From: Halopiger goleimassiliensis | GTDB lineage: Archaea; Halobacteriota; Halobacteria; Halobacteriales; Natrialbaceae | Direction of reading: 5' to 3' | NCBI RefSeq assembly: GCF_000455345.1 | Contig: NZ_HG315690.1 | Span: 1,501,360-1,565,359 of the forward strand | Length of the DNA: 64,000 nucleotides | In this document: one piece after another, positions 10,586 through 15,433 of the stretch | Layout: every line of letters starts with the position of its first letter | How positions within the stretch are numbered: the stretch's first letter is position 1 | The notes under the pieces: generated by a model | Seen by the model: the letters and a program-made list of their open reading frames with translations, nothing else | The model's database searches: none | What the model was told of the DNA's origin: nothing | Position numbers and translations under genes: made by a program

Positions 10586-11665
10586 TCACTCGATCGGGAA
10601 CCGCAACAGGGCACCGATGCCGTCGAACGCCTCGGCAAACCGGTCGCCGCCGGGGAAGTCGTCCGGGACGACGACCGTCTCCCCGCCCTGCTCGACGGCC
10701 CGGTCGCCGAACCGCTGGAGCTGTCGGCCCTCGAGCGCGGTCGAGAGCAACAGCGTCTCCACGGCGTCGTACTCGAGGGCGTCGTCGACCTCGTCCGTAC
10801 CGTACGCGACGGGACGATCGTCGTCGCGCACCACGTCGAAAAACGACGAGAGCGTCTCGCGAGCGTCGCGTCGGTCCCGCTCTGCGAGCGCGGACTCGCC
10901 CTTCCGCGCCAGTTGTCGGAGGCCCTGTTCGCTCGCGTACTCGACCGCGAACGTGTCGACGATGCGATCCTCGAGTTCGTGATCGAGGTCGGCCTCGTCG
11001 CGAAAGCGTTCGATCGTTCCGGTAGTGCCGCCGAACAACACGCTGTCGACGGGATCGTCGTCCAGAAACTCGAGCGCGGCGCGTTCGGCTACCTCGTCGA
11101 AGAACTCGCGTTTCTGTCGTTCGCGGTCCCGCTCGAATCGCTCGGCGGACTGTCCGCCGGCGCTGGATTTTCCCGGCACGTCGCTGTCGAACGTGTCGAT
11201 CGGATCGACGCCTTCGTCGGTGAGTCGCCCGATCGCCGCGCCGCCGCGTTCGACCACCAGCAGGCCGTGCGTCGACGCGGGTTCGGTGACGCCCTCGAGC
11301 GGGTCGAGGTCGAACTCGTTGGCGTGTTCGTACCGTTCCGCCTCGATCGGCGCGGGGAGGTCGTCGAACGTCGCCGTGAGCAAGTCGCCGTCGACGACGC
11401 CGGCGTAGATCGCCAGTCCGTCCTCGGGTATCTCGTCGTACTCGTTCAACGCCTGTCGCGTCGCCTCGAGCGCATCGGTCAGGGGCTCCGGCGCGGTGCT
11501 CTCGTCGAGTTGCGTCGCCTCCGCGTAGTCGGTTTCGACGGGCTGGCGGGCCGCGCCGATCGATTCCTCCGGCGGGACGGTCCGGGTGACGAGTACGTCC
11601 CGGTCCGCGTCGGCGTTCGCGAGTCGGTCGAGACGGTCGTGTAGTTCGTATTCCTCGAACGTCAT
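10586..11665 (-). CDS. Vms1/Ankzf1-like (VLRF1) peptidyl-tRNA hydrolase
   Basis: A 359-residue relative of archaeal release factor aRF1. The catalytic loop motif GGQ is at residues 170-172 in GKSSAGGQSAERFERDRE, the part that triggers peptidyl-tRNA hydrolysis. The following eRF1 domains are recognisable (LFGGTTGTIERF, RKGESALAERDRRDA, YDAVETLLLSTALEG). The protein is shorter than aRF1 (about 415), and I see no NIKS-type stop-codon-reading motif in its N-terminal 80 residues. That fits the Vms1-like release factor clade, which frees nascent chains from stalled ribosomes rather than reading stop codons. ATG 11665 begins the homologous part; the frame is open far upstream by chance. It is divergent from hemG. 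Confidence 0.78.
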   Translation of the reverse strand: MTFEEYELHDRLDRLANADADRDVLVTRTVPPEESIGAARQPVETDYAEATQLDESTAPEPLTDALEATRQALNEYDEIPEDGLAIYAGVVDGDLLTATFDDLPAPIEAERYEHANEFDLDPLEGVTEPASTHGLLVVERGGAAIGRLTDEGVDPIDTFDSDVPGKSSAGGQSAERFERDRERQKREFFDEVAERAALEFLDDDPVDSVLFGGTTGTIERFRDEADLDHELEDRIVDTFAVEYASEQGLRQLARKGESALAERDRRDARETLSSFFDVVRDDDRPVAYGTDEVDDALEYDAVETLLLSTALEGRQLQRFGDRAVEQGGETVVVPDDFPGGDRFAEAFDGIGALLRFPIE

Positions 11666-11864
11666 GGAGAATCGTTGGTGGCACGTGGACCACCGGTTCG
11701 GCTTCGTCCATCGTTGGCCGACGAGGAGGGAGAGGTGCCGGCCGGCGTGGTCAAGGCGGTCGAGGTGCGCGAACGCGAGCCTGGCTCGAGAACCACACCC
11801 CGTAGCGGCAATCCCATCGCCGTGACGACACAGTGAAATGCGTCCGATCGAAACCATCGGAGAG

Positions 11865-13142
11865 ATGAGAGTTGGCGTCGTGGGGGCCGGGATCTCCGGC
11901 CTGTCACTCGTACACGCGCTCGCGGACCGGGACGTAGACGTCGTCGGGTTCGAGGCGCGGGCGGAACCGGGCGGTATCATGCGGAGTCGACGGGTGGACG
12001 GCCGGACCGTCGAACTCGGGCCACAGCGACTGCGACTGACGCCCGGACTCGAGTCGATGGTGACCGACCTCGGACTCGAGGATCGGCTCCGAACCGGCGA
12101 CGACGACCAGCCGATCTACATCTACCACGACGAGTCGCTACACGTCGCGCCGCTGTCCGTCCGCGAGGCGCTGACGACCGACCTGCTCTCCCTGCGGGGA
12201 AAGCTCCGCATCCTCCTCGAGCCGCTGTACGGGCCGCCGAAGCCGGACGAAACCGTCGACGAGTACCTCACCCGAAAGTTCGGACGGCAGGCCGCACGCC
12301 GCTATCTCGGCCCGTTGTACAGCGGCCTCTACGGCACCCATCCGGACGACATGCTCGTCGAGTACTCGCTCGGACGAGCCCTGGAGAAGGCCGGCATCGA
12401 TCGGAGCGTTCTCCTGTGGGTTGCCAGGAAACTCCTCTCCGGCCGGGAGACGCCCCCGATCGTGACCTTCGAGGACGGCCTCGGCGAGCTATCCACGGCG
12501 CTGTACGAGGCCCACAGCGACGCCGTCCGGCTCGAGACGCCGGTCGAATCGATCCACGAGACCGACGACGGCTACGAACTCCGGACCCCGGAGGACAGCG
12601 AACGCGTCGACGAGGTCGTCCTGACGACGCCGGCCGAAACCTGTGCCGACCTGCTCGAGCCGGTCGACGCGGACCTCGAGTCGGTGCTGCGACGGTTCAC
12701 CTACAACCCGATCGGGATGGTGTACCTCGACTCCGGGTTCGACGGCGAGGGCATCGGGACGCTCGTCCCGCCGGGGTCCGACGTTCGGATCAGCGGCCTC
12801 ACCTGGAACGCGAGTTTCCTCGGGCGGGAGCGCCTTTACACCTGCTACGTCGATCCCGGCACGTATCCGGAGATGGAGTCGAGCACGGACGAGGAACTCG
12901 GCGACGTCGCGGCCGCCGAGTTCGAGCGGATCACGGGGGCGTCGGCGACGCCGATCCACGTCCACCGGTGGGATCCGGGCATGCCGGCCTACGATCGGTC
13001 CTGGACGGCGATGGACGACCTCGAGCCGCCGGCGGGCGTCCACTTCTGTACGAACTTCGTCGACCGGCCGGGGATTCCCGGGCGCATCCGCAGCGCGAGG
13101 CGACTCGCCGACGAACTGGCCGACAGATCGACCGGAAAATAA
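11865..13142 (+). CDS. hemG: protoporphyrinogen/coproporphyrinogen oxidase
   Basis: A 425-residue FAD-dependent oxidase of the HemY/PgoX type in the amine-oxidase superfamily. The N-terminal dinucleotide-binding motif is VGVVGAGISGLSLV (residues 3-16). A glutamate binding the FAD ribose follows in GFEARAEPGG. The substrate-domain text RYLGPLYSGLYGTHPDDM and the C-terminal IPGRIRSARRLADEL are family hallmarks. It oxidises protoporphyrinogen IX or coproporphyrinogen III late in haem synthesis. hemH lies 108 bases downstream on the same strand and hemE nearby on the other. An in-frame ATG at 11838 is possible, but 11865 places the glycine motif at the usual distance. Which porphyrinogen it uses depends on whether the cell follows the protoporphyrin or coproporphyrin branch. 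Confidence 0.87.
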   Translation: MRVGVVGAGISGLSLVHALADRDVDVVGFEARAEPGGIMRSRRVDGRTVELGPQRLRLTPGLESMVTDLGLEDRLRTGDDDQPIYIYHDESLHVAPLSVREALTTDLLSLRGKLRILLEPLYGPPKPDETVDEYLTRKFGRQAARRYLGPLYSGLYGTHPDDMLVEYSLGRALEKAGIDRSVLLWVARKLLSGRETPPIVTFEDGLGELSTALYEAHSDAVRLETPVESIHETDDGYELRTPEDSERVDEVVLTTPAETCADLLEPVDADLESVLRRFTYNPIGMVYLDSGFDGEGIGTLVPPGSDVRISGLTWNASFLGRERLYTCYVDPGTYPEMESSTDEELGDVAAAEFERITGASATPIHVHRWDPGMPAYDRSWTAMDDLEPPAGVHFCTNFVDRPGIPGRIRSARRLADELADRSTGK

Positions 13143-13250: not shown

Positions 13251-14312
13251 ATGGACACTGGGATCGTGCTCTTGAACTTCGGCGAGCCGTCCGAACCCGA
13301 CCGGGACGTCGTCTTCGAGTACCTCACGCGCATCTTCTTCGACAACGCAGACCTCGAGGAGGCCGAGTCCGAGGAGGCCGCCTGGGAACGGTCCGAAGAA
13401 CTCGCACGTCGCCGACTCCCCGGACTCATGGAGGAGTACGAGGAGATCGGCGGCTCGCCGCTGCAGGAGCAGGCCGACGCGCAGGCGGCCGCGCTCGAGG
13501 AACGACTCGCCGAACGCGGCCACGATGTCGAGATCTACCGGGCCATGCAGTTCATGGAACCGCTGATCCCCGACGTGGCCGAGGAACTGGCCGCCGACGG
13601 CATCGAGTCGGTGATCGCCGTCCCGATCTACCCGCTCTGTGGCCCCTCGACGACGGTCGCCTCGATCGATTCCCTCGAGTCGGCGATCGAGGACGTCGAG
13701 GGCTACGATCCGGATATGACGGCGATCACGGGGTGGCACCGCGTCCCCGCCTACAACCGCATCCGGGCCGAGACGATCTCCGAGTTCGTCGAGGCGGAGG
13801 GCGTCGACCTCGACGATCCCGACACCGCCTTCGTCTTCTCGGCTCACGGTACCCCCAAGAAGTACCTCGAGGAGGGGAGCCGCTACGACCAGTACGTCGA
13901 GGAACACGCGGCCGCCATCGCGAGCATCGTCGGCATCGACGACTACGAGATCGGCTACCAGAACCACGCCAACCGCGGCATCGAGTGGACCGAACCCGAC
14001 ACGGAGGACGTCGTCGAGGGGCTCGAGGGCGAGGCCGAGCGCGTCGTCGTCGAGCCGATGAGCTTCATGCACGAACAGTCGGAGACGCTGGTCGAACTCG
14101 ACGTCGACCTCCGCGAGGACGCCGAGGCGGTCGGCCTCGACCTTCACCGGGTGCCCGTTCCCCACGACGATCCCCGGTTCCCGACGCTGCTCGCCGACAC
14201 CGTCGAGCCGTTCCTCTCGGGTTTCGAACCCTCCTACTACCAGCTTCGGCCGTGTCAGTGCCGGGACGAACCGGGTACGTACTGTTACAACGCCGGATTG
14301 CCGCCACAGTGA
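13251..14312 (+). CDS. hemH: ferrochelatase
   Basis: A 353-residue ferrochelatase, which inserts Fe2+ into a porphyrin to make haem or coprohaem. The N-terminal GIVLLNFGEPSEP, the central IPDVAEELAADGIESV...VPIYPLCGPSTT, the FSAHGTP catalytic histidine stretch and the IEWTEPDTEDV acid patch are all family features. The protein has only four cysteines: C130 after IYPL, and C335, C337 and C345 in the C-terminal tail. This one-plus-three arrangement resembles ferrochelatases that hold a [2Fe-2S] cluster. The gene follows hemG in the same direction and converges with hemE 26 bases away. Confidence 0.93.
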   Translation: MDTGIVLLNFGEPSEPDRDVVFEYLTRIFFDNADLEEAESEEAAWERSEELARRRLPGLMEEYEEIGGSPLQEQADAQAAALEERLAERGHDVEIYRAMQFMEPLIPDVAEELAADGIESVIAVPIYPLCGPSTTVASIDSLESAIEDVEGYDPDMTAITGWHRVPAYNRIRAETISEFVEAEGVDLDDPDTAFVFSAHGTPKKYLEEGSRYDQYVEEHAAAIASIVGIDDYEIGYQNHANRGIEWTEPDTEDVVEGLEGEAERVVVEPMSFMHEQSETLVELDVDLREDAEAVGLDLHRVPVPHDDPRFPTLLADTVEPFLSGFEPSYYQLRPCQCRDEPGTYCYNAGLPPQ

Positions 14313-14338: not shown

Positions 14339-15343
14339 TCAGGCGGCGTCCTTCGCCGCCTCGAAGAACGCCTCGACGTTTTCGACGGGCGTGTTCCGAT
14401 CGACGCCGTGGCCGAGGTTGAGGATGTGGCCCTCGGAGCCGCCGGCTTCGACGACGGCTCGAGTGCGCTCTCTGACGGTCTCGGGATCGCCGTAGAGGAG
14501 CGCCGGGTCGAGGTTCCCCTGGATCGCGACGTCGCCGAGTTCTTCGCGGGCGGCCTCGAGGTCGACCGTCCAGTCAAGCGCCACGACGTCTGCGCCCGTC
14601 TCCTCGAGCAGTGCGAGGTTACCGCTGACGTTGCGGACGAAGACGATGGTCGGCACGTCGACGGCGTCGACGATCTCCCGGTGGAGCGGCAGGAGGAACT
14701 CGCGGTAGTCCGCGGGCGAGAGCAGGCCGGCGTACGTATCGAACAACTGTATCGCGTCGGCCCCCGACTCGACCTGGTACGTGACGTAGTCGACGACGAC
14801 GTCGGTGAACGCCCGCAACAGCCGTCGGAACGCCTCGGGGTGTTCCGCCCGGAGCCGACGGACCGCCATGAACGATCGGGACGGCGTCCCCTCGCAGACG
14901 TACGCCGAGAGGGTGAAGGGGCCGCCAGTGAACCCGAGGACGGCCGCCTCCGAGCCGAGCTCCGCCGAGAGGCGCTCGAGCAGTTCGCCGACGTAGGGGA
15001 GTTCCTCGGCGACCGGCTGGTGTTCCCGGTGGGTATCGGCTGGCGACTCGACCGGGTTCTCCACGACCGGGCCGACTCCGGACTCGAGGTGATAGGAGAA
15101 ACCCAGCGGCTCGAGCACCGTCAGGATGTCAGAGTACATGACGACGCCGTCCGGCGCGAACCGCTCGTAGGGCTGGAGGCTGATCTCGGCAGCGACCGAC
15201 GGCGTCGAGATCGCCTCGAGAAACGAGTACTCCTCCCGAAGCTCCCGATACTCCGGGAGATAGCGCCCCGCCTGTCGCATCATCCACACCGGGGGCCGAT
15301 CGGTTCGCTCCCCGCGCGCCGCCCGGAGGAATCGGTCTTTCAT
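14339..15343 (-). CDS. hemE: uroporphyrinogen decarboxylase
   Basis: A 334-residue HemE, which removes four carboxylates from uroporphyrinogen III to give coproporphyrinogen III. The N-terminal PPVWMMRQAGRYLPEYRELR signature (about 17-36) is diagnostic, and GFTGGPFTLSAYVCEG and DWTVDLEAAREELG follow. The ATG at 15343 gives a normal length; the frame runs upstream to 15415 without homology. It converges with hemH and lies 90 bases downstream of the HD-domain gene on the same strand. With hemH and the oxidase it makes the window rich in late haem genes. Haem synthesis from siroheme would not need these three, so the cell probably makes haem via coproporphyrinogen. Confidence 0.95.
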   Translation of the reverse strand: MKDRFLRAARGERTDRPPVWMMRQAGRYLPEYRELREEYSFLEAISTPSVAAEISLQPYERFAPDGVVMYSDILTVLEPLGFSYHLESGVGPVVENPVESPADTHREHQPVAEELPYVGELLERLSAELGSEAAVLGFTGGPFTLSAYVCEGTPSRSFMAVRRLRAEHPEAFRRLLRAFTDVVVDYVTYQVESGADAIQLFDTYAGLLSPADYREFLLPLHREIVDAVDVPTIVFVRNVSGNLALLEETGADVVALDWTVDLEAAREELGDVAIQGNLDPALLYGDPETVRERTRAVVEAGGSEGHILNLGHGVDRNTPVENVEAFFEAAKDAA

Positions 15344-15433
15344 ACCGCCGGATTGCCATCCGAGCGGCCTAATTGTTGTGAAAGGAGCACGGACGACGGG
15401 TGCCGCGTCCCGCACGTGTTCGGCGGCCGTCGC

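Follow-up and report, generated by a model that had tools for sequence, protein, structure and literature searches.

The hemH gene of Halopiger goleimassiliensis appears to encode an archaeal coproporphyrin ferrochelatase (CpfC) that carries a [2Fe-2S] cluster in a ligand arrangement distinct from that of the human enzyme. We put the probability of this reading at roughly two in three, and infer the cluster, its role and the substrate of the enzyme from conservation, gene content and a structural model. The gene lies in a 64,000-nucleotide stretch of contig NZ_HG315690.1 (the window), between a gene for a hemY-type oxidase and hemE.

The hemH gene and its neighbours

The features discussed below are given with window coordinates. 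For the four cysteine codons, the first fractions are counts among the ferrochelatase matches of the class Halobacteria, and the second, where given, are cysteine counts among distinct sequences of the same type as the window protein (the window type).

11838..13142, + strand: hemY-type FAD oxidase, proposed coproporphyrinogen oxidase CgoX (TIGR00562, PF01593), upstream of hemH
13251..14312, + strand: hemH, ferrochelatase, proposed CpfC; 353 aa, ATG to TGA (PF00762, TIGR00109)
13638..13640, + strand: C130 codon TGT, proposed internal cluster ligand (89/94 Cys, 5/94 Ser)
14253..14255, + strand: C335 codon TGT, proposed tail ligand (94/94; 180/180 distinct)
14259..14261, + strand: C337 codon TGC, proposed tail ligand (94/94; 180/180 distinct)
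14283..14285, + strand: C345 codon TGT, proposed tail ligand (94/94; 180/180 distinct)
14339..15343, - strand: hemE, uroporphyrinogen decarboxylase (TIGR01464), downstream of and convergent with hemH

The hemH product matches Pfam PF00762 at 230.1 bits (cut-off 27), which makes it a class II ferrochelatase, and TIGR00109 (hemH) at 180.3 bits (cut-off 124.6); it is the sole match to PF00762 in its own genome. Residues H199 and E278 align with the catalytic H263 and E343 of the human enzyme, and the essential active-site histidine expected of a ferrochelatase (the H199 column) is present in all 182 distinct rows. The nearest named relatives, at 83-87% identity, come from Natronolimnohabitans, a Natrialbaceae MAG, Natronococcus and Halobiforma. 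The upstream oxidase matches TIGR00562 (117.4 bits, cut-off 97.85) as well as PF01593, and the hemE product matches TIGR01464 (368.8 bits, cut-off 302.95), with an alternative GTG start of its open reading frame at 15415. The corresponding genes are already called hemG, hemH and hemE in annotated records of Halopiger xanaduensis, so the gene calls themselves are not new.

Elsewhere in the window, positions 10586-11711 of the minus strand encode a 374-aa aRF1/eRF1-like protein with eRF1 domains 2 and 3 and similarity to VLRF1. It scores 224 bits against TIGR03676, just below the cut-off of 234.7, and may be a paralogue of release factors that acts in ribosome rescue.

Conservation of the four cysteines

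According to the initial annotation, C130, C335, C337 and C345 are the only cysteines of the protein, and the translation and codons confirm this. Having exactly these four is not a shared trait, being found in 44 of 135 distinct haloarchaeal rows. Our survey of the class covered 391 genomes drawn from a larger group; PF00762 was detected in 93 of them, in 34 of 86 genera, giving 94 matches, all of which enter the conservation counts. The three tail cysteines are present in every one of these matches; at position 130, 89 of them have Cys and the other five (L048, L065, L079, L092, L093) have Ser. This invariance across the class indicates that the four-cysteine site is more than chance. Named genome contigs gave a similar picture, with the tail cysteines in 80/80 loci and C130 in 79/80 (Ser in L136). 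Ten of these 80 loci are labelled bacterial, nine from Gemmatimonadetes or Gemmatimonadales MAGs and one from a Gammaproteobacteria MAG, and all ten have the four cysteines. Because some species are represented both in the class survey and among the named contigs, distinct sequences were counted when the sites were typed.

Two further observations concern individual sequences. A fifth cysteine, at position 220, occurs in 47 of the 94 class sequences and in 10/10 bacterial MAG sequences, and is absent from the window protein. Genome G371 is the only one of the 391 with two PF00762 matches (L019, L069), and the L069 open frame contains nine cysteines, with a tail that is more divergent.

In the 180 distinct sequences of the window type, no column of residues 318-349 is invariant except those of the three tail cysteines, and the flanks vary widely; N347 is kept in 173 of the 180, and C130 is likewise present in 173, against 180 for the tail cysteines. 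These patterns bear on the idea that the cysteines have neither a metal-binding nor a redox function and have been kept by common descent. The haloarchaeal sequences do form one group, so the conservation counts represent few independent events. However, cysteines that alone stay invariant while the residues around them change, in a site that persists between archaeal and bacterial MAG sequences at 53-57% identity, are poorly explained by descent, and we regard this idea as very improbable.

Two cysteine arrangements

An alignment with the human enzyme, suggested in the initial annotation, did not bear out an animal-like placement. When the sequences are aligned jointly, C130 stands two residues ahead of the human C196 column, which corresponds to position 132 of the window protein (human ...YPQYSCSTT, window ...YPLCGPSTT), and the tail spacing is CxCx7C in the window protein and Cx2Cx4C in the human one. 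An animal-type site, with a cysteine in the human C196 column and a Cx2Cx4C tail, was therefore rejected. Human numbering was anchored through a pairwise alignment to L203 (from the Gemmatimonadota set, 412 bits), and a check of this numbering hit M76, R164, C196, H263, H341, E343, C403, C406 and C411.

Each internal cysteine goes with its own kind of tail. Among 212 distinct haloarchaeal and bacterial sequences, 173 (129 haloarchaeal, 44 bacterial) have a cysteine at position 130, always together with a CxCx5-9C tail, and 15, all bacterial, have a cysteine at the human site, always together with Cx2Cx4C; none of the 212 pairs the internal cysteine of one type with the tail of the other. Neither half-site is found in 13. 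An intact tail with Ser130 occurs in seven (six haloarchaeal and one bacterial, L245), and wherever C130 is replaced and the tail kept, the replacement is Ser (7/7), which means that a full set of thiolates is not strictly needed. Two bacterial-set sequences, L240 and L242, lack the tail motif and carry Ser130, and L253, their neighbour in the tree, has both halves. We read this as one paired loss, which is evidence, though not proof by itself, that the internal cysteine and the tail act together.

Pairs of the CxC kind are redox-active in many proteins, and the tail cysteines might hold no stable cofactor and work as a thiol-based redox switch or deliver Fe(II) to the active site. The CxC pair in the tail and the stronger conservation of the tail cysteines compared with C130 (180 versus 173 of 180 distinct sequences) fit such a role. 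The loss of C130 together with the tail in L240 and L242, and the exclusive use of Ser when C130 is replaced and the tail kept, point the other way and make it, in our view, improbable.

Four cysteines that include a CxC pair also match a zinc-binding pattern, and the enzyme could be a CpfC in which a structural Zn(II) takes the place of the [2Fe-2S] cluster. The seven distinct sequences with Ser130 and an intact tail would suit a fourth ligand that is loosely held. In the available text of studies on characterised ferrochelatases, however, it is a [2Fe-2S] cluster that one internal and three tail cysteines hold (PMC9133952, PMC8529089), and the ferrochelatase literature surveyed, as far as its accessible parts go, yielded no ferrochelatase with a zinc tail. 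We thus consider structural zinc unlikely, and a [2Fe-2S] cluster in the window ferrochelatase likely on the strength of these sequence comparisons.

The tail, C335-x-C337-x7-C345, fits the CX(1,11)CX(1,11)C motif of the survey by Weerth, Medlock and Dailey 2021, in its C-terminal class (PMC8529089, available portion), and C130 provides the fourth, internal cysteine, linked to the type of tail. The paired types of internal site and tail seen here are not described in that portion of the survey. Archaeal genomes were removed from the motif survey, as its available text states (PMC8529089), which bears out the remark in the initial annotation that archaeal enzymes had hardly been considered.

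A separate observation concerns L211 and L215, which combine an internal YSGCR cysteine with a Cx3CC tail and seem to represent a third kind of ferrochelatase site. Both fall by alignment accident, having the YSGCR site, into the class with Ser130 and no tail, which comprises four rows. Tails of the Cx3CC kind are treated as lacking a fourth cysteine in the accessible part of the motif survey (PMC8529089); the YSGCR cysteine could be the missing one.

Structural model

An AlphaFold2 model built from 63 sequences has a mean pLDDT of 92.6 and a pTM of 0.90, with pLDDT values of 88 and 83 for the blocks with residues 331-340 and 341-350. It aligns with human ferrochelatase (VIA-align 2, 2po5) with Z 36.7 and an rmsd of 2.3 A over 330 residues at 24% identity. 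By the end points of the aligned range, model residues 1-344 pair with human residues 67-419, which extends beyond human C411. In the model, then, the window tail probably fills the position of the human cluster tail. Alignments with Firmicute CpfCs (Z about 33-34) stop at model residue 324-328 because these proteins have no such C-terminal tail. A PDB search using the tail alone returned no ferrochelatase. Of the four-cysteine [2Fe-2S] reading in the initial annotation, the conservation, the linkage of internal cysteine to tail and the alignment of the model into the tail are all in favour, and what does not stand is a placement like that of the animal enzymes.

Coproporphyrin or protoporphyrin

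The gene set is the one expected around a CpfC: HemE, a hemY-type oxidase and ChdC, without HemF or HemN. Family profile searches for HemF and for HemN_C gave no match in the genome, which leaves no known enzyme for protoporphyrinogen, and PF06778 (the ChdC family) is found in 389/391 genomes of the class. We found hemE in 40/40 class genomes with hemH and 0/40 without it, taking the first 40 of each kind in list order and omitting G014, a genome without hemH. Near hemH in the 94 class loci there is a hemY-type gene in 68 and hemE in 56; among the 63 class loci of >5 kb the numbers are 43 and 52.

Residues of the active site were also compared. At the distal metal position, F10 occupies the column of human Met76, and Phe is found here in 180/182 sequences. 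This position is Tyr or Phe in CpfCs and Met in the human enzyme, according to the available text of PMC9794026, and F10 thus places the protein with the CpfCs. Among the propionate ligands of the Listeria monocytogenes CpfC (LmCpfC), Tyr46 and Ser53 are kept in the window protein, and Arg45 and Tyr124 are replaced by Glu62 and Ser138, so that the latter two give no support for a coproporphyrin substrate. In this check Thr14 and Arg29 lie beyond the aligned Lm piece, and the CpfC compared is of the tail-less kind.

These data also bear on whether the enzyme might be a protoporphyrin ferrochelatase that makes heme from protoporphyrin IX. The protein retains an N-terminal segment that the human enzyme also has, its top structural matches in the PDB are human PpfC and not CpfC, and Arg45 of LmCpfC is not conserved. 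Against this, by sequence its top PDB matches are CpfCs (Listeria monocytogenes, Bacillus subtilis), Phe and not Met stands at position 10, the HemF and HemN_C families have no match in the genome, and ferrochelatases of the window type are linked to ChdC, as detailed below. A protoporphyrin substrate is accordingly quite unlikely, and it is very likely, judging from sequence and gene content, that the hemH product is a CpfC.

We also considered whether absence of the Ahb route could be the reason for hemH, and rejected this. The best match to the AhbD profile TIGR04545 reaches E <= 1e-80 in 29/40 genomes with hemH and 25/40 without, and hence shows no contrast between the two; none of the matches in the 80 genomes scores above the profile's cut-off.

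Earlier work, each paper taken here in its available parts, provides the background. Haloarchaea have been described with the siroheme (Ahb) route, with chdC in almost all of them and ahbD in two thirds (PMC8305020). In Haloferax volcanii, PitA acts as ChdC in aerobic growth, and uroD, cgoX and cpfC are absent (PMC5746218), whereas the window organism has candidates for all three side by side. Storbeck and colleagues, who examined 59 archaeal genomes, reported that only Picrophilus and two Thermoplasma species carry hemE and hemH (PMC3004389). The genome paper on Natrialba magadii discusses CbiX and precorrin-2 dehydrogenase as iron chelatases and, in the portion available, does not mention HemH (PMC3403918).

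Relatives in Gemmatimonadota

Genome G391 is a MAG with the title Gemmatimonadetes; in its phylum, 110 of 200 genomes have ferrochelatase matches. We took 70 of these matches, the best 30 and 40 weaker ones, leaving out most at about 254-279 bits, and the shares of the types in this selected set are not those of the phylum. Three sequences that are fragments or a fusion (L223, L256, L262) were excluded from the joint alignment.

ChdC is present in 23/25 genomes with the window type, with partial or weak matches in four of the 23 (G394, G396, G474, G589), but in only 1/15 genomes with the human type; of eight genomes with other types, among them G414 (L215, of the YSGCR kind), four have it. The sole human-type genome with ChdC, G514, carries L206, L242 and ChdC on one contig (C5), and L242, the relative without tail and without C130, lies about 4 kb from the ChdC gene. 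Thus, within Gemmatimonadota the human-type site goes without ChdC and the window type with it, which suggests that the arrangement tracks the pathway, in which case the cluster would be tied to the porphyrin being metallated.

The Gemmatimonadota ferrochelatases of this type (L159, L167 and L230, for example) share the C130 site and the CxCx5-9C tail, and often have the same neighbours, hemY-type at 23/37 loci and hemE-type at 27/37. They differ in being bacterial, in sharing 53-57% identity with the archaeal proteins (MAG sequences) and in the extra Cys220 of all ten MAG sequences. A quick tree of 77 rows, rooted at the midpoint, separates the haloarchaeal sequences from the other rows by a branch with SH-aLRT 94 and all window-type rows from the remainder by another (SH-aLRT 100), and the haloarchaeal group sits among many bacterial lines of the window type. 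This topology suggests, without showing, that the ferrochelatase moved from Gemmatimonadota to haloarchaea. Because the hemY- and hemE-type neighbours occur in Gemmatimonadota too, the module may have moved together. The ferrochelatase of one MAG labelled Gammaproteobacteria (L178) groups among the Gemmatimonadota sequences, which may reflect an error of labelling or binning, or a transfer.

Discussion

The window ferrochelatase resembles the human enzyme (PpfC, 1HRK/2QD3; C196, C403, C406 and C411) in its fold, in its catalytic His and Glu and in having one internal and three C-terminal cysteines; it differs in the position of C130, two residues before C196, in its CxCx7C tail and in the Phe that replaces Met76. 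The CpfCs of Listeria monocytogenes and Bacillus subtilis are its best sequence matches in the PDB and belong to the same Tyr/Phe distal class, but they have no C-terminal tail, and the Listeria protein has Arg45 where the window protein has Glu62. In the literature searched, taken from titles and abstract openings with few subscription papers covered, no cluster is described in an archaeal ferrochelatase. Judged by these searches, what is new is the four-cysteine type, together with its link to ChdC and the reading of the pathway.

In the pathway we propose, HemE would produce coproporphyrinogen III, and the hemY-type oxidase would convert it to coproporphyrin III. The hemH product would insert Fe(II) into coproporphyrin III, H199 serving as the base, after which the ChdC/PitA protein found across the class would decarboxylate the resulting coproheme to heme b. 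C130 together with C335, C337 and C345 would hold one [2Fe-2S] cluster, which would fix the C-terminal tail next to the active-site pocket. The cluster is probably stable and dispensable for the chemistry, since Cys-to-Ser forms of bacterial ferrochelatases remain active in the available account (PMC8529089). It could instead stabilise the tail and report on iron-sulfur or redox status. The weakest step of this scheme is the last, in which the cluster would link coproheme output to the iron-sulfur or redox state of aerobic cells.

More broadly, about a quarter of haloarchaea may have a full coproporphyrin-dependent pathway, with a hemY-hemH-hemE module common to them and Gemmatimonadota and a [2Fe-2S] ferrochelatase of distinct arrangement, the cluster being tied to the porphyrin; we see the chances for and against this wider picture as evenly balanced. 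The two unmixed arrangements, the paired loss and the Ser130 versions, found within one bacterial phylum and the haloarchaea, offer natural test material. For archaeal heme synthesis, the candidates for uroD, cgoX and cpfC adjoin one another, and in none of the genomes tested does hemE or hemH occur without the other. The neighbours of hemH thus suggest a bacterial-style heme pathway, one not usually credited to archaea.
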